IMG/VR virus record: IMGVR_UViG_3300026263_000447
Coordinates: 1 to 38,490 of that record
Length of the DNA stretch: 38,490 bases
Origin: a virus
Direction: 5' to 3' (one strand)
The translations under genes and the position numbers were made by a program. This document shows, one piece after another, positions 6,225-38,490 of the stretch. The notes under the pieces are model-generated. The model worked only from the letters and a program-made list of their open reading frames with translations, was not told the DNA's origin and made no database searches. Position 1 is the first letter of the stretch, and the number at the start of each line of letters is the position of its first letter.

Positions 6225-6252
6225 TTGATTTCACAGGTGCTTCCAATATACT
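6225..6252 (+). promoter_or_regulatory. Promoter of the glycan island
   Basis: -35 TTGATT 6225-6230, 16-bp spacer, -10 TATACT 6247-6252, 11 nt before ATG 6264. It lacks the class A spacer sequence. It is the only good sigma70-like promoter I see before the long gene string from 6264 to 19274. Confidence 0.7.
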
Positions 6253-6263
6253 TCCTTGTATAT

Positions 6264-8741: not shown

Positions 8742-8752
8742 TTACCATAAAT

Positions 8753-9523: not shown

Positions 9524-9528
9524 AAAAA

Positions 9529-11546: not shown

Positions 11547-11558
11547 AGGAGGAAACGG

Positions 11559-12239: not shown

Positions 12240-12243
12240 GGCT

Positions 12244-13616: not shown

Positions 13617-13619
13617 GTC

Positions 13620-15066: not shown

Positions 15067-15068
15067 AA

Positions 15069-17226: not shown

Positions 17227-17930
17227 AGTACTGTTATGTATCAAGTTTTTATTTTGGGTCAAGAAGAGTCTTTCCGCAGCTTTACGAAGAAGACAGATTG
17301 TTGTTCTTGAAAAAACATCTGTCGAAGCTTAAAAAGCTCAAGCATAACATTAGCCTAGCCGTATTTGTAATAAACCGAGCTGATGGTTTAGAGAGCATAG
17401 AGAAAGAAGCTCAAGAATTGATACTTCAATTCAAAGACATAAAAACAGATATAATCTTAAGAGATAATATTGATGGTTCTTATGGTTGTTGGGAAGACGC
17501 TTTAAAAAAACATTCTGAAGAATTTGATTATTGTTTTCTAATAGAAGACGATTATGTTCCTGTGAGTGATAATTTTGATAAAAAATTCCAAGAACATCTA
17601 AAGCGAGAAAAAGATATTTATGCTTGTCAGTTGTGGTGGAATGAGTTCGGAGGTTATCATGCGGGCATCTCTAATGGTTTAATTAAGTGTTCCGCTTTCC
17701 GAGAAAAGGGGGAATTTAGCTTAAATAGGAACGTACACTCTTATGGGCCAGCAGAGCATAATCAAATGAATTTTCTACGTAATTTTACTGACGATGGTTG
17801 GGCTGTTGTTGATATTTGTAAAAAGTATAAAAATTTATTTTTGAATTACCAAAATAATATAGTTTGTTATGGAAACGAGAAGGGGGAAGAGCTAATAAGG
17901 CCCATTCATGACAAAGTGGGAGAATGTTAA
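17223..17930 (+). CDS. Putative GT-A glycosyltransferase (235 aa)
   Basis: N-terminal CYVSSFYFG and a middle NIDGSYGCWEDALKKHSEEFDYCFLIEDDYVP, in which IEDDY is a good DXD-type metal/nucleotide motif at about residue 117. The layout fits a small GT-A transferase without membrane anchor. Donor unknown; candidates are the dTDP- or CMP-sugars made by the cluster. It overlaps the deacetylase stop by 4 nt (ATGA). Confidence 0.65.
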   Translation: MKYCYVSSFYFGSRRVFPQLYEEDRLLFLKKHLSKLKKLKHNISLAVFVINRADGLESIEKEAQELILQFKDIKTDIILRDNIDGSYGCWEDALKKHSEEFDYCFLIEDDYVPVSDNFDKKFQEHLKREKDIYACQLWWNEFGGYHAGISNGLIKCSAFREKGEFSLNRNVHSYGPAEHNQMNFLRNFTDDGWAVVDICKKYKNLFLNYQNNIVCYGNEKGEELIRPIHDKVGEC

Positions 17931-17933
17931 ACT

Positions 17934-18392
17934 ATGACAGATATAAGTATTAGAAAAATGATGAAGTTAGATGGCGAATTTGTTCTAGAGATTAGAAACG
18001 ATGATTCTACTAGGAGTAAACTACATAATAGTAGCAAATTTACCTTAGAGCAATTTAACAGCTTCTATGAAGCGAAAAAACCATATTGGCTTATTGCGTC
18101 TTGTAATGGGGAAGATTTTGGTTATTTCAGGACTGACCATGTGGATAAAGAGAATAAAAGCATTCAGGTGGGAATGGATATACACCCAGATAAACGGGGA
18201 AAAGGGTTGGCGAGGCCATCTTACGATAAGCTGTTTAGCTATTTAAAGAATGAAGGGTTTAAAATGGTTTGGCTAGAAGTCTTGAAAAGTAACGCTCTAG
18301 CTTATAGTTTATATAAAAAAATAGGCTTTTCAGAAACAGAAAAGTGTAAATATGGTGAGGATGAATCGATTCGAATGGAAAGGTCCATTTGA
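17934..18392 (+). CDS. GNAT-family N-acetyltransferase
   Basis: 152 aa, normal for GNAT. The acetyl-CoA loop is in GMDIHPDKRGKGLARPSY (about residues 78-95, motif R-G-K-G-L-A) and the C-terminal LEVLKSNALAYSLYKKIGF is typical. It likely acetylates an amino sugar, as PseH does in pseudaminic-acid synthesis or as related enzymes do on dTDP-amino sugars made by the DegT-type aminotransferase in this cluster. Exact substrate unknown. Confidence 0.85.
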   Translation: MTDISIRKMMKLDGEFVLEIRNDDSTRSKLHNSSKFTLEQFNSFYEAKKPYWLIASCNGEDFGYFRTDHVDKENKSIQVGMDIHPDKRGKGLARPSYDKLFSYLKNEGFKMVWLEVLKSNALAYSLYKKIGFSETEKCKYGEDESIRMERSI

Positions 18393-18407
18393 TTTCTTCG
18401 CTAAAAA

Positions 18408-19274
18408 ATGAAAAACCTAAAGATTCAAGTTATTCTTTTTTATTATAACAGGCCAAGCTTAGTCAAGCATATGGCCTTGAAGACAATGCTTGAGTCTGAT
18501 TATGATAATTGGGAATTATCTTTCGTGGATGATAGTAGCGACCAACACTCAGATGAAATTTTAGAAATATTTTTTGAAGAAAATCCACAATATAAAGATA
18601 AGAAAGACAGGGTAAAAATATTTAAAACTAACGATTCTATTGAAGAAAAAAAAGAAAGAGGAGAAGCGATATTTGGTTTAGTAGCTAACGACTCCATGCG
18701 GGAAAGCGACGCCGAAATAACTTTGATGTTATGCGACGACGATGGCGTCATTCATGACTACTTGTCAAAATTAAATTCTTATTATCTAAACAACCCAGAG
18801 AGAATCCATTCTTATTCTAAGGTCATTCCTTATAACCCACTAAAAGGAAGAAAAACAGAAGCGAAAAAGGGAGAGTGGGTGGAGGGTAACAGCGGTTTAG
18901 AATACAAAGAATTTTCGTTCATGCCAGAAAACTATTTAAATTGCCGAGGAGATAGCCCTCACGCAGAAAACAGCTTAGACTCTTCTCAGGTCTCATGGAG
19001 AAGGAGTAAAGCTATTGAAGATGAAGTTTTATTTCCTTACCCTAAAACATCTAATCTAGATGCCGTTATATATAATAAAATGGATAAAAAATGGGGAGAG
19101 TGTCATTTTAATGGAATTATCGGACAGTACAAAGCTTTCTGGGAAGGTCAAAACGCATATCGTCAAGATGCAGAAGTAGAGAAAAGGTTTAATCAAGTAG
19201 ATTTGTCCGCGCAAGAATTAGAGGAGTGCGGAAGGTCAAAGACTAAAACTTTGAAAAACGGTGAAACAATTTGA
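18408..19274 (+). CDS. GT2-family glycosyltransferase
   Basis: 288 aa. IQVILFYYNRPSLVKHMALKTMLESDYDNWELSFVDDSSD at the N-terminus is a standard GT2 start, and LMLCDDDG near residue 106 supplies the DXD motif. No transmembrane helix is evident, so it is a soluble inner-face enzyme. Ends 30 nt before rmlB; the gap is A+T-rich and may hold a second internal start site. Confidence 0.8.
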   Translation: MKNLKIQVILFYYNRPSLVKHMALKTMLESDYDNWELSFVDDSSDQHSDEILEIFFEENPQYKDKKDRVKIFKTNDSIEEKKERGEAIFGLVANDSMRESDAEITLMLCDDDGVIHDYLSKLNSYYLNNPERIHSYSKVIPYNPLKGRKTEAKKGEWVEGNSGLEYKEFSFMPENYLNCRGDSPHAENSLDSSQVSWRRSKAIEDEVLFPYPKTSNLDAVIYNKMDKKWGECHFNGIIGQYKAFWEGQNAYRQDAEVEKRFNQVDLSAQELEECGRSKTKTLKNGETI

Positions 19275-19304
19275 TTTTAAAATATATTAAGTTATTTTAA
19301 ATAA

Positions 19305-20258
19305 ATGAATTTGCTTGTTACGGGAGGTTGTGGTTTTATAGGTTCAAACTTCATAAGGGTCGCTTTAGATAAAGGAGGCGTTAAAAACTTGGTTAACGTA
19401 GACAAAATGACCTATGCTGCGGACGCTGAAAATACAAAAGAATTTGAAGATAGATCAGAATATTCACATGAAAATTTTTGCTTAACTGATTATGATAGGC
19501 TCTGGGAGACCTGCAAAGATAGCGACATAACTGACATAGTTCATTTTGCAGCGGAAACCCATGTAGATAATTCAATTAAAGGTTCTAAAGTTTTTATACA
19601 ATCTAACGTAGTTGCTACGCACTCCATACTTGAAGCGTGTAAAGACAGAGACATAAGACTTCACCACATCTCTACTGATGAAGTATATGGGGAAGTGTTT
19701 GGAGACGACAGATTTTCAGAAGAAAGCCACTACGACCCAAAAAATCCATACTCAGCAACGAAAGCTGCTTCGGATTTTTTAGTAAGGTCTTACGTTAATA
19801 CTTACGGACTTAGGGCAACCATTTCTAACTGCAGCAATAATTACGGACCTAACCAGCATGACGAAAAATTGGTTCCGACGATAATACGTAGCTTGTTAAA
19901 CAATGAATTGATACCAGTTTATGGACAAGGAGCAAATGTAAGAGACTGGATTTATGTAGATGATCATTGCGAAGCTATATGGTCGATTCTAAAAGAAGGA
20001 AAGATAGGCGATACTTACTTAGTCGGAGCAGATACAGAAAGAACAAACATGCAAACGATTACATCTATATGTGACTTAATGGAAAGAACAATTTCAAGCT
20101 CCATAAAGTTCGTAGAAGATAGAGCAGGGCATGATCTCAGATACGCAATAGACGGCTCAAAGCTTAAAGAGGAATTAAATTGGAAACCTCGTTACACTTT
20201 CTTAAAGGGGTTAGAAAAAACAATTACTTTTTACAAAAAAAAGTATAATTCACCTTAG
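19305..20258 (+). CDS. rmlB: dTDP-glucose 4,6-dehydratase
   Basis: Converts dTDP-glucose to dTDP-4-keto-6-deoxyglucose. The NAD-binding GGCGFIG is at residues 7-13, STDEVYGEVFG at 123-133 carries the catalytic Asp-Glu pair, and Tyr149-x3-Lys153 (YSATK) is intact. SNCSNNYGPNQ and YGQGANVRDWIYVDDH are family hallmarks. 317 aa against about 350 usual. Together with rmlA it gives the substrate for the RmlD-like reductase and the DegT-like aminotransferase. Confidence 0.93.
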   Translation: MNLLVTGGCGFIGSNFIRVALDKGGVKNLVNVDKMTYAADAENTKEFEDRSEYSHENFCLTDYDRLWETCKDSDITDIVHFAAETHVDNSIKGSKVFIQSNVVATHSILEACKDRDIRLHHISTDEVYGEVFGDDRFSEESHYDPKNPYSATKAASDFLVRSYVNTYGLRATISNCSNNYGPNQHDEKLVPTIIRSLLNNELIPVYGQGANVRDWIYVDDHCEAIWSILKEGKIGDTYLVGADTERTNMQTITSICDLMERTISSSIKFVEDRAGHDLRYAIDGSKLKEELNWKPRYTFLKGLEKTITFYKKKYNSP

Positions 20259-20282
20259 CTTGGGTGTATTATACAGAAAGAT

Positions 20283-21062
20283 ATGGCTAATTTAGGCTCA
20301 AAGGCTCATCAAACTAGAGCCGAAATCAAGAAAGAAACTCGTGAAGAAATAGAGGCGTCTCTCGAAGATCGGTTCGAAAACCCTAATCCGATAAAGCGAC
20401 AAATAAAAATTAATCAGCTTAATTGGACCGAAAAACAAAAAGAATTTTTTAAAGTAGCTCTAGATAGAGATACGAAAATAGTATTTGTTAATGGTCCTGC
20501 GGGTACAGCAAAGACTTTATTATCGGTTTATTGCGGACTTCAACTTTTAAACATGAAGGCAATCTCTGATATAATGTATCTTCGATCAGCGGTAGAGAGT
20601 TCGGATAGAAGCTTGGGTTTTTTACCAGGTAGCGCAGAAGAAAAATTAAGGTTTTATAATTTACCCTTCTTAGATAAGTTAGAAGAGCTACTGCCAAGTA
20701 GAAGAGCTTCAAAGCTAGAAGAAGAAGGTAGAATTTCTATGTTTCCAGTTAATTTTGCTAGGGGAATGAATTGGACGGCGAAATGCATAATTCTTGACGA
20801 AGCGCAAAACTCAACGATAAAAGAAATAGTTACTGTACTAACTCGAATGGGAGAAGGTAGCAGATGTTTTGTTATAGCAGACCCAATGCAAACAGACTTA
20901 AAGCATGAGGATAAAGCTCACGCTTTTGAAAAAATAATAAAGACCTTCTCGGATAAGGAAAGTTATGATATGGGAATCAAAGTATTTGAATTTTCTGAAG
21001 AAGATATAATGAGGTCTGAGCTAGTTAAGTTCTTGGCTAAAAAATTAAGACAAGTGAAATAA
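20283..21062 (+). CDS. PhoH-like ATPase
   Basis: 259 aa. Walker A GPAGTAKT at residues 71-78 and Walker B CIILDEAQN at 168-176, with the PhoH-type R-S-A-V-E and the GEGSRCFVIADPMQTD segment (sensor region). PhoH-like proteins are frequent in marine phages; some have RNA/DNA helicase or nuclease activity, but the role in phages is not settled. It starts after a 24-nt gap from rmlB and its stop directly abuts the stop of the convergent gene at 21063. Confidence 0.9.
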   Translation: MANLGSKAHQTRAEIKKETREEIEASLEDRFENPNPIKRQIKINQLNWTEKQKEFFKVALDRDTKIVFVNGPAGTAKTLLSVYCGLQLLNMKAISDIMYLRSAVESSDRSLGFLPGSAEEKLRFYNLPFLDKLEELLPSRRASKLEEEGRISMFPVNFARGMNWTAKCIILDEAQNSTIKEIVTVLTRMGEGSRCFVIADPMQTDLKHEDKAHAFEKIIKTFSDKESYDMGIKVFEFSEEDIMRSELVKFLAKKLRQVK

Positions 21063-22479: not shown

Positions 22480-22875
22480 ATGCAAAAGAAATACTGTACT
22501 AAATGTGGTCAAGCCACTGAATACAAATCCGAAACTCCTTCTTTCTGCTCGAAGTGTGGTAATTCGTTTTCGGGAAAGAAATCTACAGCCACTAGATCAA
22601 CCGTAAGAGATAAATCCTCGCGCTACCCTAGCGAGGACGAAGATGAATTTGAGGAAAGCTCCAGTTTTAGCTCCAACATAACTTCGTTAGAGTTTGAAGT
22701 AGAAAAATTTCCAGCTCCCAATCCTACGATAGGCCAAGTAGCATCCCTAGGGCCGAGCGAAGCTAGCGATAAAGGACCGAAACAGCAGGAGGCTATAGCT
22801 CCAGTAGATGAAGAAAAATTCCTCAAAGATTTTCAGCAAGAGGCGGGTTCGATAAAGCGAAGAAACAATGGCTGA
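22480..22875 (+). CDS. Zinc-ribbon protein (131 aa)
   Basis: Residues 6-27 contain CTKCGQ...FCSKCGN, two CxxC knuckles of a short zinc ribbon. The rest is low-complexity: a Ser/Glu/Asp-rich stretch (YPSEDEDEFEESSSFSS) and a Pro/Gly-containing tail. The gene overlaps the sigma-like gene by 8 nt, so the two are coupled; a zinc-ribbon adaptor acting with the sigma-like factor on RNA polymerase is a reasonable guess but not shown. It opens the packaging/head module. Confidence 0.75.
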   Translation: MQKKYCTKCGQATEYKSETPSFCSKCGNSFSGKKSTATRSTVRDKSSRYPSEDEDEFEESSSFSSNITSLEFEVEKFPAPNPTIGQVASLGPSEASDKGPKQQEAIAPVDEEKFLKDFQQEAGSIKRRNNG

Positions 22876-23551
22876 GCCCAAAAAGTTTGAAGACTTTATA
22901 GAAGTCATAGACAAAGAGATAGTAAAGAGGAAACCGAAATGGAACCTTAAATCTCTTGCTTGGCTAGACTACGATGACGTCTCACAAATTATAAGGATAC
23001 ATATACATAAAAAGTGGCACTTGTACGATCAAAAGAAACCGATAGGTCCATGGCTTAACGCGATAATAGCTAATCAAATCAAAAACTTGATAAGAAATAA
23101 TTATGCTAACGTTTCTAGGCCGTGTTACAGGTGCGACGCTGCAGAGGGGGAAAATCTTTGTTTGATATATGAGAAACAATGCAATGCTTGTCCCATATTT
23201 GCCAAATGGGAATCCACAAAAAAAGATGCTTATAATTTAAAAATAGCATCCTCCCTAGAGCATCATGGACACGAGCTAAATAGTCGAGACTTGCAAGACA
23301 GCATGAATTTAGAGTCCAATATAAAGAAACTACATAAAGCCATGGAGGAGCAGCTAAAACCTTTAGAGTGGAGAATATATCAATTAATTTACATAGAAAA
23401 TAAATCAGATGAAGAGGTCGCAAAAATAATGGGCTATACAACTTCAGAAGCGAACAGAACCCCAGGTTATAAGCATATTAAAAATGTAAAAAAGTCCATT
23501 ATAGCTAAGGCTAAAAGAGCTCTAGACAAAAACAAAATAGATATTCTTTAA
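22868..23551 (+). CDS. Sigma-70-like RNA polymerase sigma factor
   Basis: 227 aa. Residues about 30-80 (AWLDYDDVSQIIRIHIHKKWHLYDQ...GPWLNAIIANQIKNLIRNN) fit sigma region 2, and 165-195 (LKPLEWRIYQLIYIENKSDEEVAKIMGYTTSE) fit region 4 with its helix-turn-helix. Between them is an insert with five cysteines (Cys86, 89, 98, 105, 108), probably a zinc site, unusual for ECF-type factors. Likely directs host RNA polymerase to late genes. Overlaps the zinc-ribbon gene and starts the run of packaging genes. Confidence 0.75.
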   Translation: MAEPKKFEDFIEVIDKEIVKRKPKWNLKSLAWLDYDDVSQIIRIHIHKKWHLYDQKKPIGPWLNAIIANQIKNLIRNNYANVSRPCYRCDAAEGENLCLIYEKQCNACPIFAKWESTKKDAYNLKIASSLEHHGHELNSRDLQDSMNLESNIKKLHKAMEEQLKPLEWRIYQLIYIENKSDEEVAKIMGYTTSEANRTPGYKHIKNVKKSIIAKAKRALDKNKIDIL

Positions 23552-24636: not shown

Positions 24637-25578
24637 ATGAAGTTAGAATGTAAAGCTTGCGATAAAGTCTTCGATAGCGAAAGGAGTCTACACGCGCATA
24701 TTAAAGCTCATGACTTAAGGGTAGTTTCTTATTACCAAAAATATTATCCTCGATATGATCTTTATAATGGTTCGATAATAAAGTTTAAATCTAAAGAGCA
24801 ATATTTTAGTCAAGACTTTAACAACAGAACGAACCAAAGAAAATGGATAGAGTCTCAAGATAAATCGGACGCAAAAAAATATCTCAAAAAGCTTATAGAA
24901 GAAAGAATTAAAACTAAGGAGATTTGCTTTTCTCCATGTCAAGTGGAGCTTAGAAGCTTACTTATACCATCCATAGTGTTTTACGAAAAATTTTTTGAAG
25001 ACTACTATGAGCTATGTCAGAACATTGGACTGAATAACAAGTATAGAAAGATCAATGAACTAATTGTAGCTAACGGTTATTCAGAAAATGAAGAATTGGA
25101 GATTTTTATAGACACTAGAGAGCAGATGCCATTGGATTTTAATTTTCCTTCAAAAGTAAGGACTCTAAAGTATGGAGACTACGCTTTGAGCAATAAGGAT
25201 ATAACTTGCAATTGTTACATAGAAAGGAAGTCTTTAGCGGATTTTATATCAACTATCAGCGTGGCAAATCACGATAGGTTTTGTAGGGAAATAGAAAGAG
25301 CTAAAGAAGATGATGCTAATTTAGTTATCCTCGTAGAAGATACTCTTTCTCACGCTATGTCTTTTCCTTTTTTACCTTACATCTCCAAAAAGATAAAGGT
25401 TACTCCTGAGTTTATATTCCATAAAGTAAGAAAGATGATTCAAAACTACGATCACATACAATTCTTATTTGTGAAAAATAGAGAAGAGGCTTCTCGGGTA
25501 ACTGAAAAAATATTCTTTTCTAAATGCGTTTACAAGGATATAGATTTGCAGCTAGCTTACGATAAAGGAATTCTATAG
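24637..25578 (+). CDS. C2H2 zinc finger plus ERCC4-type nuclease
   Basis: A C2H2 finger at Cys5, Cys8, His21, His25 is followed by a linker and an ERCC4/XPF-like nuclease at about residues 155-285: Asp159 in FIDTREQ, Gly180-Asp181 (KYGDY), Glu196-Arg-Lys198 and Asp202 (IERKSLAD), and the following RFCREIERAK and LVILVE. The GDx(n)ERKxxxD active site is complete. Located directly upstream of the large terminase (the terminase ATG follows the TAG without a gap), where many phages have an HNH nuclease that aids packaging. A role in packaging or recombination is inferred. Confidence 0.8.
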   Translation: MKLECKACDKVFDSERSLHAHIKAHDLRVVSYYQKYYPRYDLYNGSIIKFKSKEQYFSQDFNNRTNQRKWIESQDKSDAKKYLKKLIEERIKTKEICFSPCQVELRSLLIPSIVFYEKFFEDYYELCQNIGLNNKYRKINELIVANGYSENEELEIFIDTREQMPLDFNFPSKVRTLKYGDYALSNKDITCNCYIERKSLADFISTISVANHDRFCREIERAKEDDANLVILVEDTLSHAMSFPFLPYISKKIKVTPEFIFHKVRKMIQNYDHIQFLFVKNREEASRVTEKIFFSKCVYKDIDLQLAYDKGIL

Positions 25579-27411
25579 ATGTGGTATGCTCCAGAAAAAT
25601 ATAGGCAAGGAGACTCGTTCAATATGAACGAAGAGCTTCTAAAGCTTAAAGGAGAGCTAACAGACAAAGAAGCTAAAATTTCTTTAGCTAAGTTTCTAAG
25701 CTCTAACCTTTCGTTTACTACAGAATTGATTTCGGGAATAAGACTAGCTCCGTTTCAGGAGATAACCTTAAAAGGCATGATGAAGAGAAATTTCTCTATG
25801 TGTGTCTGGGGACGTGGTTGTGGTAAAACTTTTATAGCTTCAGTGTTTTGTTTTCTTCATTGTATTTTCAACCCAGAGACCAAGATACTAATCGCAGGAC
25901 CCACGTTTCGTACGGCAAGGTTTATATTCAATAACTTAGAAAAGATAGTTAACACAAGGGGTGCGGAGCTCTTACAACAAGCTTTTTGTACAAAACCTTC
26001 CAAAAGAAACGATCAGTATGAATGGCTTATAAATGGAGGGAGTATCACTGCGATTCCGTTAAGTGGAGAAAAGATTCGTGGTTTTCGCGCTAACATACTG
26101 CTTCTTGACGAGTTTCTATTACTTCCAGAAGAGATTATTAAAACCGTGTTGATGCCGTTTCTGGTTGCTCCACAAGACATGAAAGAAAGAATAAAAATAA
26201 GAGAGATGGAAGATGATCTAATAGATAAAGGGCTTATGAAAGAAGAAGAGAGGATGGTTTTCGAAAACAATTCTAAAATGATCGCTTTGTCTTCTGCGTC
26301 TTATACTTTTGAGAATTTATATAAAACTTATAAGGAGTGGTCTGGAAAAATATATTCAGAAGAGAGGGGGGACGCTACATATTTCATCTCTCAATTAGGT
26401 TACGAAGCTTTACCTGAAGAAATGATAGATAGAACCGTAATAGAAGAAGCTCAAGATGGAGGCTCTTCACATTCTTCTTTTTTAAGAGAGTACTGCGCTC
26501 AATTTACTGATGGTTCTGATTCTTATTTTAGCGCACAAAAAATGCACAACTGTACGATACCCGACGGAGAGCATCCAACCACTTTGATAAAGGGAAAAAA
26601 GAACAGTAGATATATATTGGGTATTGACCCTTCCTTTTCTAATTCTCCAAGCTCTGATTTTTTCGCAATGTCTTTATTGGAAGTGGATGAGGAAACTAAA
26701 ACGGGAACCTTGGTTCATTCTTACGCTGTGGCGGGTGGAGATTTAAAGGATCATATAAAGTATATGTTCTACATCTATAGTAACTTTGACGTGGAAATGA
26801 TATGTATCGATAACGCGGGATATCAGTTTATAGATAGCTGTAATGAATCCTCTTTCTTTAGGAAGAACAATATAAACATAAAGTTTTTTGATTTTAATAG
26901 CGATGCAGAAGGACAGAATTATATTTCAGAATGCGCCAAAGCTAAAAGAGCTTTAAATAAGCAAGATGGAGCTATATGTTTTAAGCAAACCTTCACCTCT
27001 AATTGGTTAAGAAAAGCCAATGAGCATCTGCAAGCATGTATAGACCACAGGAAAATATGGTTTGCGTCAAAGTGCTCCGCGAACGAATCTGAATTTACCA
27101 ATCAAACCTCTCAGTCTTTTGACATTAAATTAACGGGAGAAGATTCTAAGGGCGACTTAATTGATTCTCAAGATATATTAATTTATCAAACTAAAAAACA
27201 GTGTGCTCTCGTAGAAGTTAAAAGTACTGCAAAAGGAACTCAAACCTTTGATCTTCCTCAACATCTAAAACGCTCTACAAGCGCAAGTAGAGCAAGAAAA
27301 GATAATTATACGACTCTAATGTTGTCAAATTGGGCTTTAAAGTGTTTTTTCGATATAAAATCTCATAAAAACGAATCTTCGTCAACTTTTACCCCTATAA
27401 TGCTTGATTAA
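25579..27411 (+). CDS. Terminase large subunit
   Basis: Packaging motor ATPase and nuclease, 610 aa. Walker A GRGCGKT at 78-84, Walker B ILLLDE at 173-178, a coupling segment MIALSSASYTFENL near 233-246, and an RNase H-like nuclease: ILGIDPSFSNSPSSDF near 345, MICIDNAGYQF near 412 and GDLIDSQDILIYQ near 525, each with acidic residues. Start MWYAPEKYRQGD directly after the nuclease stop. A second in-frame ATG lies at residue 16. Followed after 29 nt by the portal gene. Confidence 0.95.
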   Translation: MWYAPEKYRQGDSFNMNEELLKLKGELTDKEAKISLAKFLSSNLSFTTELISGIRLAPFQEITLKGMMKRNFSMCVWGRGCGKTFIASVFCFLHCIFNPETKILIAGPTFRTARFIFNNLEKIVNTRGAELLQQAFCTKPSKRNDQYEWLINGGSITAIPLSGEKIRGFRANILLLDEFLLLPEEIIKTVLMPFLVAPQDMKERIKIREMEDDLIDKGLMKEEERMVFENNSKMIALSSASYTFENLYKTYKEWSGKIYSEERGDATYFISQLGYEALPEEMIDRTVIEEAQDGGSSHSSFLREYCAQFTDGSDSYFSAQKMHNCTIPDGEHPTTLIKGKKNSRYILGIDPSFSNSPSSDFFAMSLLEVDEETKTGTLVHSYAVAGGDLKDHIKYMFYIYSNFDVEMICIDNAGYQFIDSCNESSFFRKNNINIKFFDFNSDAEGQNYISECAKAKRALNKQDGAICFKQTFTSNWLRKANEHLQACIDHRKIWFASKCSANESEFTNQTSQSFDIKLTGEDSKGDLIDSQDILIYQTKKQCALVEVKSTAKGTQTFDLPQHLKRSTSASRARKDNYTTLMLSNWALKCFFDIKSHKNESSSTFTPIMLD

Positions 27412-27440: not shown

Positions 27441-29384
27441 ATGAGCGAAGAATCTAAAAAGCCCGCAAAAAAAGCGGCTAAAAAAACAAGAAAACCTAGG
27501 GCTTCCGCTAAGAAAACTTCGACGGCATCCTCAGAAACAGAACCTCTAATGACCTTTGAGAGTTTTGCTTATGACACCACTCAAACGAGAAGGAATAAAT
27601 CTGCTGTAGTAAAGAGGACCGACAGATTTAAGAATATAGACGACGGACTGGTTCCTTATAGCTACTACAGTACCCCTTATTCTACTGGAGCGGGTAATTC
27701 AGATATAGATATACGGGATGCAGTTACCTTATGTCAGAAAGCTTATTATAACTTTGCTCAGTTCAGGAATGTCATAGATTTAATGACAGAGTTTTCTATA
27801 GGTACTTTATATTTCGAAGGAGAAAATAAAAAATCCAAAAAGTTTTTCGAAGAGTTCTTCGAGAAAATGGACCTCTTTTCCTTACAGGATAGGTTTTATA
27901 GAGAATATTTTAGGTCTGGAAATATATTTTTATATAGGTTTGAAGGCAAGCTGGCAGACGGAGACCTTAAAAAAGTAGCTAACGCTTATGGAGCTAATTT
28001 ATCCTTATTGACTGAAGGTAGACTTCCGACAAGATATGTATTTTTGAACCCAGCGGATATAAGGATGACAGGTACAGCTTCGTTCTATAAGGCTAGATAT
28101 TCTAAAGTTTTAAGCCCTTATGAGATACAAAGGATTAAAAACCCACTAACTGAAGAGGATCATACTATAAGAGAGTCTCTCGACAAAGAGACTTTGAAAA
28201 AAATAGATAGTGGAAATTCAAAAAAAGTATCGTTTCCTTTGGACTCAGATAGATTAGTCTCTGTTTTTTACAAGAAACAAGACTATGAGCCGTTCGCTGT
28301 TCCGATGGGATTTCCTGTTTTGGCCGACTTAAGCTTTAAGGATGAGCTTAAAAAAATGGATATGGCCATCGCTAGAACTATGCAACAGGCAATTCTTTTA
28401 GTGACTATGGGCACGGACCCAGACAAAGGGGGAGTCAATCAAAAGAACTTAATGTCTATGCAAAAGTTGTTTGAAAATCAATCTGTAGGAAGAGTGTTGA
28501 TAGCGGATTATACTACTAAAGCTGAATTCGTAGTACCTAAAATTGCAGAGCTAATGAGTCCGCAAAAGTATGAAGTATTTAATCAAGACATCAACATGGG
28601 CTTGAATAACATTTTAGTGGGAGGTGAAAAGTTCGCCAATCAGTCGAATAAAGTCGAAGTATTTTTAGCTAGATTAGAGGCTGCTAGAGAAACCTTTCTA
28701 AACTCATTTTTAATCCCAGAGATTAAAAAAATAGCAAGGTCTATGGGGTTTAGGTCTTGTCCCATGCCAAGGCTCTCTGAAATTTCATTAAAAGATGACA
28801 CTTTAAAAGATAAAGTATATACTCGCCTTTACGAACTCGGAGTTCTAAGCCCAGAAGAACTAATGGAAGCTCTACAGAGCAGCAGACTTCCCAAGAAAAG
28901 AGATTCTGTAGAATCTCAAAAAGAATTCTACAAAATGAAAGAGGATGGTTTCTATGAACCTATTATGAAATCAGGTTCAGAAGAGGGCGGTAGACCTGAA
29001 GGAACGGAAGGAATTAAACAAGAGACTCAAGAGGTTTCACCAATAGGAGAAGGAGAACAGTCTAAAGCTACCAATTTTAGCTTGAATAAGATAAAAGAAA
29101 ATATGATTTTAGCTCAAAAATTATCTACAGAAGTAGCAAAAACCTTGAGGAAAATGCATAAGATAAAGAGGTTTACTAATAAGCAAAAACAAGTATCTGA
29201 AGATATTTGTGAGATTATAATCTCAAATGAAAGCCCAGATAATTGGCTAAATAGCGTAGAAAAATACTGCGAATCACCCATTGACCATAACCCAGAAAGA
29301 GTTAAGGTTGTTCAAAATATAGCCTACGAGCATCAATTAGATGCTTATTTAGCTAGTCTTTTGGCGTCTAGTATGAAGGAGTAA
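27441..29384 (+). CDS. Portal protein
   Basis: 647 aa. Follows the terminase in the standard order. Central region DRFYREYFRSGNIFLYRFEG, YVFLNPADIRMTG and NQDINMGLNNILVGGEKFANQSNKVEVFLARLEAARETF is typical of portal crown/stem sequences. The first 35 residues are very basic and Ala/Lys/Thr-rich, reminiscent of histone-H1-like tails, and may touch packaged DNA. The C-terminal 150 residues are charged and helical. Ends 3 nt before the tubulin-like gene. Confidence 0.85.
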   Translation: MSEESKKPAKKAAKKTRKPRASAKKTSTASSETEPLMTFESFAYDTTQTRRNKSAVVKRTDRFKNIDDGLVPYSYYSTPYSTGAGNSDIDIRDAVTLCQKAYYNFAQFRNVIDLMTEFSIGTLYFEGENKKSKKFFEEFFEKMDLFSLQDRFYREYFRSGNIFLYRFEGKLADGDLKKVANAYGANLSLLTEGRLPTRYVFLNPADIRMTGTASFYKARYSKVLSPYEIQRIKNPLTEEDHTIRESLDKETLKKIDSGNSKKVSFPLDSDRLVSVFYKKQDYEPFAVPMGFPVLADLSFKDELKKMDMAIARTMQQAILLVTMGTDPDKGGVNQKNLMSMQKLFENQSVGRVLIADYTTKAEFVVPKIAELMSPQKYEVFNQDINMGLNNILVGGEKFANQSNKVEVFLARLEAARETFLNSFLIPEIKKIARSMGFRSCPMPRLSEISLKDDTLKDKVYTRLYELGVLSPEELMEALQSSRLPKKRDSVESQKEFYKMKEDGFYEPIMKSGSEEGGRPEGTEGIKQETQEVSPIGEGEQSKATNFSLNKIKENMILAQKLSTEVAKTLRKMHKIKRFTNKQKQVSEDICEIIISNESPDNWLNSVEKYCESPIDHNPERVKVVQNIAYEHQLDAYLASLLASSMKE

Positions 29385-29387
29385 TAA

Positions 29388-30557
29388 ATGACAGAAAACG
29401 AAAACCAACAAGAATCAAATCAAGAAGAGGTTTCTTCTGATGTCGTAAAGTCAATGTATGATGAATCATTCGATATCTCAATGGAAGATTTAATGATTCC
29501 CGACGTGCAGGAGGAAGCCACTAAAGGAAACATTGTTGAAGATAAGGTAGAAGGAGCTTTTAAGTTTTGCTTTTTGGGAGCAGGGCAAGGAGGCTCTAGG
29601 ATCGCTGAATCTTTTAATAAAAAGGGTTATGAACGAGTAGCTGTTATAAATACCGCAGAGCAAGATTTAAATACTATTAACGTAAAAAATAAGCTTTTGA
29701 TTGGAGAGGGTGGGGCTGGAAAAGACCCAGCGGTAGCAAAAAAATTATACCAAGAAAAAGAAAACGACATTTTAGATTTTATTCGTTATTCTTTCGGAGA
29801 AGAATTTGATCGTATTTTTGTATGCGTTGGAGGTGGGGGAGGCACAGGCTCTGGACTCGCTACGAGCTTAGTGGATGCAAGTAAGGAAGTTTGCGAAGCT
29901 ATGAAACTCCCCACTTCTAAGGTTGGCATGATATTGACTCTACCAAAAAATTCAGAAGGTAGGGGGGTATGCAACAACGCTTCGAATTTGCTAAGAGAGG
30001 TCATGGATCATGTGGATAGCGGAAAAATTTCGCCCCTCATTATAGTTGACAATGAAAGAGTCGCTAACCTATACCCAAATCTTCCAGTCTCTAAGTTTTG
30101 GGACGTTGCGAACGGAAGCACTTCTGGGTTGTTTCACCTTTTTAATCATACAGCTTCTAAAGATAGTACTTATTCAAGTTTTGACGCTAATGATTATAAA
30201 AATGTTTTAGACTCTGGTTTGATCGTTTTTGGAGCTTCACCAGTTAAAGATTGGCAAGATTCAATCGCTATCTCTAGGGCCGTTAGGGAGAATTTGAAGG
30301 GAAATTTATTGACGGGAGGTATCGACTTAAGCCAAGGTTCTACCGCTGGAGCAATTGTTATAGGAGGAAAAGAGCAGCTAGATAATATAAAACAAATGGA
30401 CCTCGACGATGCATTTTCTCAGTTATCTAGAATGTTGAAGCCAAATACTTTAGTTCATAGAGGAATTTACAGCGGTAATCAATCTGGACTTACTATATTT
30501 ACTGTAATCGGAGGATTAGGATTACCTCAAGAGAGATTAAAAAGTTTAGAGACGTGA
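29388..30557 (+). CDS. Tubulin/FtsZ-like GTPase
   Basis: 389 aa. After a 55-residue acidic tail, FCFLGAGQGGSRIAESF (residues 60-76) matches the first nucleotide loop and VINTAEQDLNT (87-97) the second. GGGGGTGSG (148-156) is the tubulin signature loop, followed by a third region VGMILTLPKNSEG. The domain after about 265 resembles the tubulin C-terminal half; a T7-loop-like GGIDLSQ at about 304-310 keeps the Asp. Tubulin-family phage proteins (PhuZ, TubZ) form filaments. Unusually, this one lies between portal and lysis/head genes. Whether it polymerises is unknown. Confidence 0.82.
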   Translation: MTENENQQESNQEEVSSDVVKSMYDESFDISMEDLMIPDVQEEATKGNIVEDKVEGAFKFCFLGAGQGGSRIAESFNKKGYERVAVINTAEQDLNTINVKNKLLIGEGGAGKDPAVAKKLYQEKENDILDFIRYSFGEEFDRIFVCVGGGGGTGSGLATSLVDASKEVCEAMKLPTSKVGMILTLPKNSEGRGVCNNASNLLREVMDHVDSGKISPLIIVDNERVANLYPNLPVSKFWDVANGSTSGLFHLFNHTASKDSTYSSFDANDYKNVLDSGLIVFGASPVKDWQDSIAISRAVRENLKGNLLTGGIDLSQGSTAGAIVIGGKEQLDNIKQMDLDDAFSQLSRMLKPNTLVHRGIYSGNQSGLTIFTVIGGLGLPQERLKSLET

Positions 30558-30603
30558 GTAGCGTTCTCTGGAAAGTAAAGGAAAATAAACAGGAAAAAAA
30601 GTT

Positions 30604-30807
30604 ATGGCAGATAATAATATTAAACCAGGTTGGAAAACTACCGAATTCTGGATTACAGTCGTCGTCTCGGCCTGTTCTCTATTGTGGGGAGCAGATGTGC
30701 TAGACCCAGAAGCCGCTGGTACAGCTAATAAAATCTTCGGATTTGTAGTCGCTGCACTTAGTAGCCTTGGATACTCTGTGTCCAGAGGTATGGCGAAAAA
30801 GGGCTAG
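30604..30807 (+). CDS. Holin-like membrane protein (67 aa)
   Basis: Two hydrophobic segments, residues 13-30 (TEFWITVVVSACSLLWGA) and 42-60 (NKIFGFVVAALSSLGYSVS), separated by an acidic turn, and a basic C-terminus (RGMAKKG). This is the profile of class II-type phage holins. Starts with MADNNIKPGWKTTEFW, common in such proteins. A Shine-Dalgarno-like AGGAAAAAAAG precedes it. First gene of a compact lysis cassette inside the head module. Confidence 0.75.
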   Translation: MADNNIKPGWKTTEFWITVVVSACSLLWGADVLDPEAAGTANKIFGFVVAALSSLGYSVSRGMAKKG

Positions 30808-30810
30808 TCT

Positions 30811-30990
30811 ATGTGGGTAGCCTTTATAAAGGCCCTGTTAGATTGGCTTACCGCGCTCGTTAAAGAAGACACTAAGGCGAGCGACGCCGACGGCACACCT
30901 AAGTCCCTAAAGGACAGGTGGCGAAGAAGGATAGAAGAACAGGAAAAAAAATCCAAAGAAAATGAAGAAGACATTAATACTTCTGAGTAG
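30811..30990 (+). CDS. Possible inner-membrane spanin-like protein (59 aa)
   Basis: ATG 30811, 3 nt after the holin stop, starting MWVAFIKALLDWLTALVKED. The N-terminal 18 residues are hydrophobic or amphipathic and could anchor it to the membrane. The remainder is highly charged and helical (KDRWRRRIEEQEKKSKENEED). The C-terminal 29 nt overlap the lipoprotein gene in another frame, as in Rz/Rz1 pairs. It is shorter than known i-spanins, so the assignment is tentative. Confidence 0.5.
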   Translation: MWVAFIKALLDWLTALVKEDTKASDADGTPKSLKDRWRRRIEEQEKKSKENEEDINTSE

Positions 30991-31180
30991 TTTTTTATTT
31001 TTTGTAGGCTGTGGTTCTACCAGAGTAGTATTTGTTGATACTAGCTCTGACCTTGTAAGAATTGGTCCTAAGGTAGAAGGTAGAGTTTACATAATGAAAA
31101 ACGGAGAATGGGTCCTCTCTAAGAGTAAAGTAAAAATACCAGAAGGCTGGTACGCGGGAGGTCTGCCCAGAGAAGAATAG
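30962..31180 (+). CDS. Small lipoprotein, candidate o-spanin
   Basis: 72 aa. Signal peptide MKKTLILLSSFLFFVGCGS with a lipobox ending at Cys17, so the mature protein of 56 residues is lipid-anchored, probably in the outer membrane. The mature part VVFVDTSSDLVRIGPKVEG and the closing KIPEGWYAGG resemble short lysis-cassette lipoproteins of other phages. Overlaps the candidate i-spanin gene out of frame. Fusion of the two membranes at the end of lysis is the inferred role. Confidence 0.7.
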   Translation: MKKTLILLSSFLFFVGCGSTRVVFVDTSSDLVRIGPKVEGRVYIMKNGEWVLSKSKVKIPEGWYAGGLPREE

Positions 31181-31203
31181 TTTTTTTAAAAAAACATAGG
31201 CAG

Positions 31204-31233
31204 TTGTCAAGAAGCTTCATCTTTTGGTGTATT
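31204..31233 (+). promoter_or_regulatory. Possible promoter for the C39-like lipoprotein gene
   Basis: -35-like TTGTCA (31204-31209) and -10-like TGTATT (31228-31233) at 18-bp spacing. TGTATTTACAT also occurs at the start of the gene at 3361. The start of transcription would fall about 5 nt before ATG 31245, inside the terminator hairpin described next. Confidence 0.4.
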
Positions 31234-31259
31234 TACATTAAGGGATGAAGCTTTTTTTT
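31212..31259 (+). terminator. Terminator hairpin overlapping the next start codon
   Basis: Perfect 10-bp stem AAGCTTCATC (31212-31221) with GATGAAGCTT (31244-31253), 22-nt loop, followed by a run of T. It can end transcripts from the holin/spanin genes. The right arm contains the ATG (31245) of the following gene, so upstream transcripts would hide that start, whereas transcripts begun within the loop would not. Confidence 0.7.
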
Positions 31260-31793
31260 ATATTTTTATTAATTAATTTAGCTACTGGATGTGGTTTGCT
31301 TCAATCTATATCTGAGAATTCTCTGTACTGTAAAGAGAGAGCTATGGCAAAAGACCCTCTTCATGTTTGGAGTTGTGGGCCAGAAGCTTTATATGACGTA
31401 ATTCATTATATGAAAATAGACCCATTTGTAACGAGGGAAAAAATTAGCAACCACATACAGACAAGTAGCATTTTGCCGATAAGAGGAGCTCTTTCTATCT
31501 TTAATGAAAAAGCTAGAAATATAACTTTTCCTCAAGAGATGCTGGGAGTATTAAAAGTATATAACATATCTGCAATCAAGAAAAAGAGCTTAAACGAAAT
31601 AAAGAGAAATGAATCTGCTATTGTTCTGATAAGAGACAAGAATTCGCTTTTTAGTTATCATTGGATTTTTTACCCAAAGCATTCTCTTCGGCGTATAGGG
31701 AGTTTTTTTGGTGTAGATTCTACAGATATCGTAAGTGTCTACATATTAAAGAATAATAATGATGATTATTTTCTTTCTAACCACCTACCATAG
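31245..31793 (+). CDS. Lipoprotein with C39/papain-like peptidase fold
   Basis: 182 aa. Signal peptide MKLFFIFLLINLATGC with lipobox LATGC (Cys16). The mature part contains HVWSCGPEALYDVIHYM (Cys44), which matches the catalytic-cysteine motif of C39-type bacteriocin-processing peptidases (DCGPAAL...), and YHWIFYPKH (His139) fits the catalytic histidine. The protein is small for a full C39 domain. It may cleave a cell-envelope protein or peptide during infection. Its 3' end overlaps the convergent gene by 28 nt. Confidence 0.65.
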   Translation: MKLFFIFLLINLATGCGLLQSISENSLYCKERAMAKDPLHVWSCGPEALYDVIHYMKIDPFVTREKISNHIQTSSILPIRGALSIFNEKARNITFPQEMLGVLKVYNISAIKKKSLNEIKRNESAIVLIRDKNSLFSYHWIFYPKHSLRRIGSFFGVDSTDIVSVYILKNNNDDYFLSNHLP

Positions 31794-32509: not shown

Positions 32510-33073
32510 ATGAAGTCTTTTAAGTGTATTAATGTTCGCGTGAGTTCTGAAGACCTAGAGAAAGAAAAGGAAAAGATAGACCCTCAAGAGAGGGCTATTT
32601 TATACTCTAATAACCTCTTAAAGGCTTTTGACGGTAAAGCTAATGAGTTTAATGAGCTTCACGAACAGAAAGTAACCCCCAGTCAAATTAAATCAGTTTA
32701 TTTAAATGCTGTTTCTCTACGGCTAAACCCAGATGTTAAAAACCTATATGCTTTCGCCAGAATAAATCTTTTTTTTGACATGCTTACTGGTAAGGAAGCT
32801 TTCCTGACGGGCGTCTATCCTCAATCAGAACCTCTGGAGGAAAAGACTGTAGGTTTGGTGTTTGAACTCGTTGATGTTAGGAATATTAGTCGGGGTAAAG
32901 AAATAGAAAAACCTATAGATTTTTTTGAGCAATATTCTATGGTTGAAAATCATTTTTCTCAAGCAAGGGAAGACCTAGTTAAGTATGATGTTGATTTTGT
33001 GTTAAGTTCAGCAGATGACGAATTGTTCTTAACTAAAAATAAAAAATGCAACTATTTATGGGAGATTTTATGA
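32510..33073 (+). CDS. Hypothetical head-module protein (187 aa)
   Basis: Unrecognised. MKSFKCINVRVSSEDLEKEKEKIDPQERAIL suggests a strand followed by a charged helix; the middle NLYAFARINLFFDMLTGKEAF is hydrophobic and helical. Soluble, no signal peptide. It restarts the + strand head genes after the moron and ends in an ATGA overlap with the protease gene, so it is probably a structural or assembly protein. The ATG lies directly after an A+T-only tract (TTATTTATTTTAAATG). Confidence 0.65.
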   Translation: MKSFKCINVRVSSEDLEKEKEKIDPQERAILYSNNLLKAFDGKANEFNELHEQKVTPSQIKSVYLNAVSLRLNPDVKNLYAFARINLFFDMLTGKEAFLTGVYPQSEPLEEKTVGLVFELVDVRNISRGKEIEKPIDFFEQYSMVENHFSQAREDLVKYDVDFVLSSADDELFLTKNKKCNYLWEIL

Positions 33074-34587
33074 AAAAACACGAATATACTACATCTTTTA
33101 GCTCTACGGTTAAACCTTTAGTATCAGAGCAGAAGGATGAAATTTTAGCAATAGCAAGCCTAGAAGAGATTGGAAAATTCTTGCCAGAAATTGACACTGA
33201 CAAAAATGTGGATTTATTGCCAATTGCATTTAACGCTTGCGTCGTAAATAGAGCTAATAAGAATGGCGATGTGATCGATGCAAATACTGCAATTGATGTA
33301 TATGGGTCATTTATAAACAAACCAATTAACATAGAACATAATAGAGAGAGATTAATCGGAGTTATCTTAACTGCTGGATTTAGTGAGTTCGGTACAGATA
33401 TTCCGATAGAGGCAGAAGAGGTAGTTGAAAGGACTGATCCGTTTAATATCACTCTGGGAGGAGTGGTTTGGAAGGCTGTAAACTTGGAATTAGCAGACAA
33501 AATAGAAGACTCAAGCGATCCTTCTAGCGAGAGTTTTATGAAAGTTTCAGCTAGTTGGGAGCTTGGTTTTACTGATTATGAAATAGCTATAGTATCTGAA
33601 GGAAAAAATATAGCGGACGCTGAAATTGTTTCTGCGGAAAAAGATGTAGACGCATTAAAGCAATACCTTAAGGGCTTTGGGGGTTCTGGAGTACTTGAAG
33701 ACGGAAGAAGCGCGTATAGAAAAGTCATCAATGACGTTGTTGCTCTTGGTATAGGACTAACAGTAAACCCAGCCGCAGACGTCAAAGGGTTAATAAGTCC
33801 AAAAACGATTAAAGAAGATAATCAAGAAGAATTTCTGGAAAAAGAAGCCAAATCATCCGAATCGGAGGAAAAAATGCAGAAAACAGAAAAAAACAGTTCA
33901 CAAACTATGGAAAAAAATGTAGCAAATAACAAAGGTAAAGTCATGAAAATTAATAGTACTAAAGATATTTCGGACGAAAACCTCCAAGAGCTTACAGCCT
34001 CTCACATTGCGGAGTTGATTGAGTCAGAACTCAAGACGGCTTCAGAGAAATACGCTGAAGAAAAACGGGAGGTTGAGACTCAGCTCCAAGCTGCTCAAGA
34101 TCAGGCGACAGCCCTTGAGGAAGACCAAGAAAAGCTCAAGGCAGATTTTAACGCTGTTAAAGAAGAGTTAGAGAAACTTAACTCTGAAATAGCAGCGAAA
34201 GAAGCTGAAGATAAGTTTAATCAACGCATGTCTATGTTCGATGATACTTACGAACTTTCAGATAAAGATCGTGAAGTTATCGCCTCCGAACTAAAAGATA
34301 TGAACGATGAGACTTTCGAAGCTTACGCCAGTAAAATGGCAATTCTTCTGAGTGCGAAGAGCAAAGAGCAAATTGCTAAGCTGGAGGTTGAGAAATCTAC
34401 AGAAGAGCAAGAGGCTAAAGCTTCAGAAGAAAACAAAGAAGCTTCTAACGAAGTTTTAGAAGAAGCTATTTCTCAGGCCGAAGAGGAGAAGGAAGAGATT
34501 CCTGCGTCCGCAGAGGCATCTGAGCAAACTGTATATGACAAATACAAACAAGCTTTTGATATCGACCAGTTCGACGTAAAGCTTTAA
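33070..34587 (+). CDS. Prohead protease fused to scaffold
   Basis: 505 aa. The start at ATG 33070 overlaps the upstream stop (ATGA) and has a Shine-Dalgarno (GGGAG); earlier ATGs at 33046 and 33058 lie within the previous gene. The N-terminal half has the layout of T4 gp21/herpes-like prohead serine proteases: candidate catalytic His90 (KPINIEHNRERLIGV) and Ser160 (SFMKVSASWELG), spaced as in that family. From about residue 269 on it is an acidic, Gln/Glu/Lys-rich coiled coil typical of scaffold. It precedes the decoration and capsid genes. Catalytic residues are inferred by pattern. Confidence 0.75.
   Translation: MKKHEYTTSFSSTVKPLVSEQKDEILAIASLEEIGKFLPEIDTDKNVDLLPIAFNACVVNRANKNGDVIDANTAIDVYGSFINKPINIEHNRERLIGVILTAGFSEFGTDIPIEAEEVVERTDPFNITLGGVVWKAVNLELADKIEDSSDPSSESFMKVSASWELGFTDYEIAIVSEGKNIADAEIVSAEKDVDALKQYLKGFGGSGVLEDGRSAYRKVINDVVALGIGLTVNPAADVKGLISPKTIKEDNQEEFLEKEAKSSESEEKMQKTEKNSSQTMEKNVANNKGKVMKINSTKDISDENLQELTASHIAELIESELKTASEKYAEEKREVETQLQAAQDQATALEEDQEKLKADFNAVKEELEKLNSEIAAKEAEDKFNQRMSMFDDTYELSDKDREVIASELKDMNDETFEAYASKMAILLSAKSKEQIAKLEVEKSTEEQEAKASEENKEASNEVLEEAISQAEEEKEEIPASAEASEQTVYDKYKQAFDIDQFDVKL
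33874..34587 (+). CDS. Nested scaffold protein from an internal start
   Basis: In-frame ATG 33874 (residue 269 of the protease gene) is preceded by a strong Shine-Dalgarno GGAGG at 33864-33868 with 5-nt spacing. This would give a 237-aa protein consisting of only the coiled-coil scaffold region, MQKTEKNSSQ... to ...FDVKL. This is the arrangement of lambda C/Nu3. A second internal ATG at 33943 also has an upstream AAAGG. Confidence 0.6.
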   Translation: MQKTEKNSSQTMEKNVANNKGKVMKINSTKDISDENLQELTASHIAELIESELKTASEKYAEEKREVETQLQAAQDQATALEEDQEKLKADFNAVKEELEKLNSEIAAKEAEDKFNQRMSMFDDTYELSDKDREVIASELKDMNDETFEAYASKMAILLSAKSKEQIAKLEVEKSTEEQEAKASEENKEASNEVLEEAISQAEEEKEEIPASAEASEQTVYDKYKQAFDIDQFDVKL

Positions 34588-34611: not shown

Positions 34612-35163
34612 ATGGCAGTAACATTAAGACCATTTAGAGATTACGACGAGAAGGATGTAATTAACTTATATCACTTCTCGGGATCAATCCCTGCAACCAA
34701 AGGACTTTTGGTTAAGATTCAGGGCAACGGGTGGGTCTCGTCTGACGAGATCGCCATGCTTGGCAGTGTCGGTAATTCTTACAGCAATACAGTTTCAGAA
34801 CGCTATGGCGTTGAGGCTGCTGTAACAACTGCTGGCGCGGCAGATTCCCCGATGGGAATGATGCTTTTCGATGTTAAGGAAACTGACGAAAACGGTGAGA
34901 AACTTGTATTTAATCCTCGCAAAGCTGCGGAGATGGATATTGTTTTGAGCGGACAAGCAGTTCCCGTCGTTACTAGAGGAATATTCCTTTATAGCGGAAC
35001 TCAACTAGCGTCTGACGCCCCAACGGCTGGACAAAATTTGTACTGTGGTGCAAACGGTGAAATTATCACTGGCAACCCAGGTAGTGCTAATACCAAGGTG
35101 GGACGTGCTTTAGGCACGAAGGATAGCGATGGAGTTATCCTGATCAGCCTTGATTGTAGCTAA
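34612..35163 (+). CDS. Head decoration protein
   Basis: 183 aa, soluble, beta-rich, between scaffold and capsid, the usual place for a lambda gpD-like decoration protein. MAVTLRPFRDYDEKDVINLYHFSG at the N-terminus, a variable middle and a Gly/Ala-rich NTKVGRALGTKDSDGVILISL near the C-terminus, as in several decoration proteins of marine phages. Shine-Dalgarno-like GGAGAAAA 8-9 nt before ATG. The call relies on position and length. Confidence 0.65.
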   Translation: MAVTLRPFRDYDEKDVINLYHFSGSIPATKGLLVKIQGNGWVSSDEIAMLGSVGNSYSNTVSERYGVEAAVTTAGAADSPMGMMLFDVKETDENGEKLVFNPRKAAEMDIVLSGQAVPVVTRGIFLYSGTQLASDAPTAGQNLYCGANGEIITGNPGSANTKVGRALGTKDSDGVILISLDCS

Positions 35164-35188
35164 ACTACTTTTACTGGAGAAATTTAAA

Positions 35189-36307
35189 ATGAGATTAACT
35201 TTAAAAGAAACCCCAGAACAGGTGGAGCTCATCAAAGCGATGGGTTCTAGAAACCAAATTGTAGCTAGAGAAGCTAGTGAGGCGTTCGCCGCCTTTTTAG
35301 GGCCTGTAGTTCAGGAAGTAATTCAGCAAGCAGGTACTGCTGGCGCGATTTACACTGACGCTCCCTATGACGAAGACGATAGCCCAAGCTACCCTCTAGA
35401 CTTGTATTACAATGAGAGTAAGAACTTCATCACTGTATGGAGTCAAAACGTAGCTGGAGGTATGCCCAGCTCTCACGTTGAAGGTCTCGAAGAGTTGAAA
35501 ATCGCCACTTACCGTTTGGATAGTGCGATTTCCTTCAATAAACGTTATGCTCGTCGTGCTCGTTTGGACGTTGTAAGTAAAGCTGTAGAAAGAATGGCTC
35601 AAGAAGTTCTTGTTAAGCAAGAGCGTAACGCTTGGGCTGTGCTTCTTAAGGCTTTAGCCAATGCTTCTACTGGAGACAGTAGCTTGACACACTGTATTAG
35701 TGAAGTTACTACTAGCGGATTCTCTATGGTCCTTATGAACCACTTGTTGGTTCGAATGAAGAGGATTAATGAATCTTTCGCTGGCGGTACAGCCGCTAAT
35801 CCTTACAGTCGTTTAACCGACTTGTACTTGAGCCCAGAGAGAATGGGAGACATTAGGAACTTCGCTTCTCAGCCTCTAGATGCTGCTGTTGGATTGAATG
35901 TTCCAAACAATGTTCGCGAAGATATCTATCGCTCTGCTGGAGCTTCAGAAATCTTTGGAGTAAGCCTTCATGAGATGATTGAGCTTGGTGTTGGACATAA
36001 GTACAACACCCTGTTCGCCACAATGGGCGGCTCTTCTGGTAACTACGACGATGTTGACAACAACTCATCGCACACTTCCTTTGATTCTTCCGCTGACGAA
36101 CTTATCGTCGGCCTAGACAATAGCAAGGGTGCGCTCGTTCGTCCTATCGCAAGAAGCGCTGAAACAGGCTCTACATTTACTGCTCTCCCAGATGATCAGT
36201 ATAACATCACTAGAGCTGATAAGGCTGGTTTCTACGGTTCGCTTGAGGAGGGTCGTGTTTGTATCGACGCTCGGGCAATTGTTGGACTTAACCTTAACGC
36301 TTCGTAA
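35189..36307 (+). CDS. Major capsid protein
   Basis: 372 aa from ATG 35189 (MRLTLKETPEQVELIKAMG), chosen because it has a Shine-Dalgarno (TGGAGAAA); the longer frame from 35150 overlaps the decoration gene. Residues 25-70 form the helical arm followed by the E-loop-like part; FNKRYARRARLDVVSKAVERMAQEVLVKQERNAWAVLLKAL is a long spine-helix-like stretch, and a C-terminal beta region with AIVGLNL follows. GC content and codon use are more even, as expected for a highly expressed gene. It is followed by a strong terminator. Confidence 0.85.
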   Translation: MRLTLKETPEQVELIKAMGSRNQIVAREASEAFAAFLGPVVQEVIQQAGTAGAIYTDAPYDEDDSPSYPLDLYYNESKNFITVWSQNVAGGMPSSHVEGLEELKIATYRLDSAISFNKRYARRARLDVVSKAVERMAQEVLVKQERNAWAVLLKALANASTGDSSLTHCISEVTTSGFSMVLMNHLLVRMKRINESFAGGTAANPYSRLTDLYLSPERMGDIRNFASQPLDAAVGLNVPNNVREDIYRSAGASEIFGVSLHEMIELGVGHKYNTLFATMGGSSGNYDDVDNNSSHTSFDSSADELIVGLDNSKGALVRPIARSAETGSTFTALPDDQYNITRADKAGFYGSLEEGRVCIDARAIVGLNLNAS

Positions 36308-37189: not shown

Positions 37190-37196
37190 TTTAATA

Positions 37197-38490
<1,294 letters not shown>

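Follow-up and report, generated by a model that had tools for sequence, protein, structure and literature searches.

A TubZ-like tubulin encoded beside the portal gene in a family of uncultured tailed phages

The tubulin gene and its setting in the head module

The window analysed here is a 38,490-base virus fragment. At positions 29388-30557 (plus strand) it carries a gene for a TubZ-like tubulin/FtsZ GTPase of 389 amino acids, as judged from the open reading frame, Pfam and PDB searches, and an AlphaFold model. A sequence-only reading had described the product as a tubulin/FtsZ-like GTPase with all three nucleotide loops, and this description was borne out. PF00091 (Pfam Tubulin) was matched with an E value of 2.6e-15 and 57.6 bits against a curated cut-off of 33, with weaker matches to the TubZ-like C-terminal and Tubulin_2 families, and the assignment to the FtsZ/tubulin superfamily is far above chance. 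When solved structures in the PDB were searched with the single sequence, TubZ (4ei7) ranked first (2e-16) and FtsZ next; with a profile of 41 family members the match to 4ei7 rose to 6.5e-22. The AlphaFold model had a mean pLDDT of 86, exceeding 90 across most of the core (residues 55-389), and the two-domain fold, central helix H7, and acidic T7 loop were recognized using the model, VIA-align, and the family alignment. Structural ranking of the model, a check proposed with the sequence-only reading, placed Bacillus TubZ first (Z 36.7 at 2.2 A, and 36.4), followed by CetZ2 (34.9), c-st TubZ (about 31.5), and FtsZ (about 31).

The nucleotide-binding motifs, all on the plus strand, were located by sequence and alignment and comprise the T1 loop GAGQGGS(R) at 29577-29597, the T3 loop GEGGAGK(DP) at 29703-29723, and the T4 tubulin signature (G-box) GGGGGTGSG at 29829-29855, which is kept in 80 relatives. 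The T7 synergy loop FDANDYKN (30180-30203, plus strand) supplies the acidic residues D266 and D269, both invariant in 80 of 80 sequences. Core residues of the GTP loops were invariant or nearly so when the 80 relatives were aligned, the invariant set being G64, G66, Q67, G69, N88, G108, G109, G111, G150-152, G154, and G156, together with D221 and N222. A lack of conservation of the GTPase residues among relatives had been named at the outset as grounds for abandoning the assignment; the residues proved to be conserved and the assignment stands. Because the GTP loops and both T7 acidic residues are essentially invariant, the protein very probably hydrolyses GTP and polymerises.

Ahead of the core lies an acidic, disordered N-terminal tail (residues 1-57; 29388-29558, plus strand), a feature already pointed out from the sequence and present in every aligned member, where it spans 44-76 residues with a median net charge of -12. 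In the model the first 45 residues are mostly disordered. A Tyr and a Pro are invariant in the aligned tails, which also share a DISxPDIxxP-type motif, given in full by the family alignment as Y-x(n)-D[IVL]S[LMI]PD[ILM]xxP (residues 24-38; 29457-29501, plus strand). A strict pattern for the core of this motif matched 118 of the 162 tubulin ORFs in the fetched loci described below and none of the other ORFs. The C terminus is short, with 6-27 residues past G376 across the family and an 8-residue helix finishing the model, and the C-terminal tail used by PhuZ and TubZ is almost missing. The partner-binding end seems to have moved from the C to the N terminus.

The upstream neighbour (27441-29384, plus strand; 647 aa) gave zero matches in Pfam, PHROG, and PDB sequence searches, and sequence comparison showed distant similarity to Slashvirus portal proteins. 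Its AlphaFold model was of moderate confidence (pLDDT 61), yet portal and connector chains filled the top 50 entries of the structural search, the best with Z 14.4 over about 230 residues, and on this predicted fold the gene is a portal gene. The spacing of 3 nt between the two genes given in the sequence-only reading was accurate, the portal gene ending at 29384 and the tubulin gene beginning at 29388. The ribosome-binding site of the tubulin, AAGGAG (29376-29381, plus strand), falls within the last portal codons, an arrangement that suggests translational coupling.

The rest of the head module is likewise on the plus strand. The terminase large subunit (TerL; 25579-27411) was identified by profile matches, as was the gene directly before it (24637-25578), conserved family-wide, which fuses a C2H2 zinc finger with an ERCC4-type nuclease. 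Downstream of the tubulin are a holin-like small membrane protein (30604-30807) and a small lipoprotein, possibly part of a spanin (30962-31180), both named from appearance and together looking like a lysis set; a probable prohead protease/scaffold (33046-34587), named from appearance and place without a profile match; a head cement/decoration protein (34612-35163; PF09956); and a probable major capsid protein (35150-36307), named from its place without a profile match. With terminase and portal upstream and lysis-like and head-like genes downstream, the tubulin lies inside the head module. The initial placement of the gene between portal and lysis/head genes is thereby upheld by fold for the portal and by profile for the cement gene, the only one of the five downstream candidates with profile support; the others are placed by appearance or position.

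Several further genes were recorded. A weak sigma-70 region 2 match at 22868-23551, near the head operon, may represent a phage late sigma factor. Beside the lysis-like genes, 31245-31793 encodes a lipoprotein with a CGPEAL motif like that of papain-like/C39 cysteine peptidases, and 37196-38488 encodes a tail fibre protein with collagen repeats. A long sugar-nucleotide/glycan cassette (6225-21059) contains NeuB, a DegT aminotransferase, RmlD, GDP-mannose dehydratase-like enzymes, and an acetyltransferase, with PhoH at its end; its content suggests phage-encoded synthesis of a sialic or pseudaminic-type sugar.

Portal linkage and accessory status across relatives

Relatives were collected by profile scans of a viral contig collection, which returned 143 and then 256 matches, the best 80 being taken each time; the family therefore has at least 256 members. 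In total, 162 loci were fetched, representing 108 distinct tubulin sequences. The gene-neighbourhood survey called for in the sequence-only reading found the portal on the tubulin's strand and upstream of it in all of the best 80 relatives of the first scan and in 161 of the 162 fetched loci. The two genes were within 200 nt of each other in 127 loci (89 of 107 distinct cases), and about a sixth of distinct cases had an intervening gene; inserted genes were found at 18 of 85 portal-tubulin joins versus 44 of 85 TerL-portal joins, counted over distinct cases. The lone exception, L144 (1967-5354), has the order TerL-tubulin-portal and a longer tail that keeps the motif. Since tubulin and portal are still neighbours there, their adjacency has outlived a rearrangement. 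No downstream gene was common to all fetched loci, leaving the portal as the only invariant neighbour.

Tubulin distances correlated with those of the portal (Spearman 0.49) better than with those of TerL (0.29) or the ERCC4 protein (0.19), although the distances are saturated and the closer tracking of the portal is suggestive only. Between the window and locus L003, non-synonymous change was 0.055 for tubulin, 0.111 for portal, and 0.094 for TerL, with synonymous sites saturated. Most of the 161 portal linkages are inherited and are not independent events, which makes the adjacency count weaker evidence for contact between the two proteins.

A genome scan for a host of the tubulin family found none; its only match, on the archaeal contig L084, was an ordinary archaeal FtsZ and was rejected as a family member. 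On the longest contig carrying the tubulin, of 116 kb, lambda-type tail genes are accompanied by genes for sigma factors, DNA ligase, PhoH, and RIIA/RIIB. A tmRNA gene that encodes its own tag peptide is also present (L231:10829-11256).

A scan with a portal profile recovered at least 593 portal relatives. A locus was counted as lacking the tubulin only if at least 4 kb of sequence followed the portal, and by this rule 31 distinct portals lack it. Among these phages, 20 longer records, themselves fragments, were searched whole and contained no tubulin-family gene, while positive controls were found. On the portal tree the presence/absence label requires 5 changes, compared with 21 for shuffled labels, and it follows that gain or loss of the gene is rare but has occurred. 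At L095 and L141 an inserted structural protein is followed directly by a holin-like gene, and L004 has the tubulin between the two. The spot after the portal takes very different inserts at L120, L139, and L140, including minus-strand cassettes. No portal domain separated carriers from non-carriers; only single columns did so, and these are confounded by ancestry. Because phages with closely related heads do without the gene, the tubulin appears not to be required to build such heads and is best regarded, from the sequences compared, as an accessory and not a core head-assembly factor. The role at the time of head assembly first suggested for it is accordingly divided: the link to the portal held, including at L144, and a need for the gene in head assembly did not.

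Proposed role and alternatives

The function favoured here is that of a filament positioning procapsids, packaging motors, or DNA. The tubulin would be made together with the portal, late in infection, from the head operon, and would form dynamic filaments in a GTP-dependent manner. Its acidic tail may bind another phage component, with the portal/packaging vertex or the procapsid as the likeliest candidates, and the filament could then position or move procapsids, or unite them with the DNA concatemer. Efficiency of packaging or assembly would be raised without the gene being essential, comparable to capsid traffic on PhuZ filaments. Taken as a whole, the reading of the protein as a tubulin that polymerises with GTP, forms a family of its own nearest to TubZ, is made with the portal, and positions procapsids or DNA is put forward tentatively, at a little short of an even chance. 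The narrower mechanism, in which ordinary tailed phages without a nucleus use a portal- or packaging-coupled cytomotive tubulin to move procapsids or DNA during head filling by way of the acidic tail, is possible and is held with distinctly more reserve. The wider reading is weakened by the occurrence, in the sequence at hand, of closely related portals and terminases without the tubulin, by the lack of a portal domain marking carriers, and by the genes inserted between portal and tubulin in some loci.

Several of these observations would also suit a late cytoskeleton that makes no contact with the portal and either centres the phage DNA or replication zone or arranges the virions ahead of lysis. 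The site beside the portal would then reflect a spot that accepts inserts and offers suitable late expression, consistent with the variable stretch after the portal, which holds different genes in related phages, and with the gain or loss of the tubulin gene as a whole (L095 and L141 versus L004). Insertions seldom part tubulin from portal, however, the swap at L144 keeps them adjacent, and the conservation of the tail motif is suggestive of a specific partner; this explanation is unlikely, though it has to be reckoned with. Head-operon position beside the portal and an acidic tail that could serve packaging or docking are also compatible with a virion component, in which the tubulin fold would sit in the portal vertex or be packaged in the head, with GTP as a switch and no filament. 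Such a role is improbable, as the acidic T7 residues, whose action is on the adjacent subunit of a protofilament, are invariant and point to polymerisation, and related heads manage without the protein.

TubZ is the closest solved structure, and the named proteins nearest in sequence are plasmid replication/TubZ-like proteins; both observations favour a TubZ-type partition motor, by which the phage genome, maintained as a plasmid-like prophage, would be segregated. Conservation of the portal alone as a neighbour argues against such a motor, as does the lack of iterons around the gene, of a TubR-sized gene directly upstream, and of a long C-terminal tail, and we consider it quite improbable. 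Interference with host FtsZ, raised in the sequence-only reading, found no support. Block of host division is frequent among phages, and the protein belongs to the FtsZ superfamily, so that co-assembly with host FtsZ or its poisoning could be envisaged; but an inhibitor has no need of a complete GTPase site, the structural-operon position suggests late expression, the sequence is closer to TubZ than to FtsZ, and the complete GTPase, T7 loop, and operon together argue for a filament of the phage's own. An anti-division role is thus very improbable.

If a filament positioning procapsids or DNA is the correct reading, the data suggest that a large group of uncultured tailed phages of ordinary size uses it in head assembly or filling. 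In the literature examined, bacterial filament-based capsid transport is described for nucleus-forming jumbo phages; should a similar job be done here, where the largest contig is about 116 kb, spatial organisation of virion assembly would be far commoner than thought. Natural presence/absence pairs among close relatives provide a built-in comparison.

Comparison with known tubulins

TubZ of Bacillus plasmids and Clostridium phage c-st, the filament of type III partition, shares with the portal-linked tubulin a common fold, the nucleotide loops, and the FDxxxF/Y T7 loop. It differs in its surroundings and its ends. The plasmid relatives have a gene of 108-112 aa directly upstream of the tubulin, whereas no TubR-sized neighbour is conserved in the fetched loci, where the portal is directly upstream instead, and no iteron array (tubC) was found in 29200-31300. 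The portal-linked protein has the N-terminal acidic tail and a short C terminus, and it lacks the long C-terminal tail through which the tubulin of TubZRC systems assembles and binds its adaptor. Likewise, the FtsZ-type C-terminal peptide (FtsA/ZipA) is absent, and the setting is a phage head operon, not chromosomal division.

PhuZ of the nucleus-forming jumbo phages 201phi2-1 and phiKZ is, as here, a phage-encoded and accessory tubulin. Its filaments carry capsids, the role proposed above for the portal-linked tubulin, and it is non-essential (PMC13282480) and similarly patchy, being present in only 66.2% of chimallin phages (PMC10299810). By sequence the relation is very weak (hhalign 44%), PHROG 4733 (PhuZ) being matched by 2 of 41 members with a best E value of 0.0053. 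The phiKZ TubZ assembles through a C-terminal helix and knuckle and has no notable N-terminal extension (PMC3678025). The PhuZ gene lies away from the portal, that of 201phi2-1 sitting among unknown and virion genes. A search with the 201phi2-1 chimallin gave zero matches in 10 carrier contigs of up to 116 kb, with the positive control found, although these contigs may be incomplete and a single query may miss distant chimallins.

Bacillus phage G gp138, a putative FtsZ-like protein, was the only tubulin that tblastn recovered from the phage collection (25% identity); it has no N-terminal tail, lies among nucleotide-metabolism genes, and groups with plasmid TubZ-like proteins, apart from the portal-linked family. 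The best viral match in the structure library was A0A6J5RW92 (FtsZ Cell division GTPase, uncultured Caudovirales phage), with 28% identity. The sequence-only reading placed known phage tubulins with replication or partition functions, which is only roughly right, gp138 and the 201phi2-1 PhuZ being departures from it. A resolved tree linking the family with PhuZ, FtsZ, and TubZ was not obtained, as the branches are too long, and no prior report of portal-linked phage tubulins was found in the open literature searched. The portal-linked tubulin is a separate family from PhuZ in a different genomic setting. Phage tubulins as such were already known; what appears to be new, judged from that literature, is a family of this extent linked to the portal, bearing an acidic N-terminal tail of docking type and found outside nucleus-forming phages.
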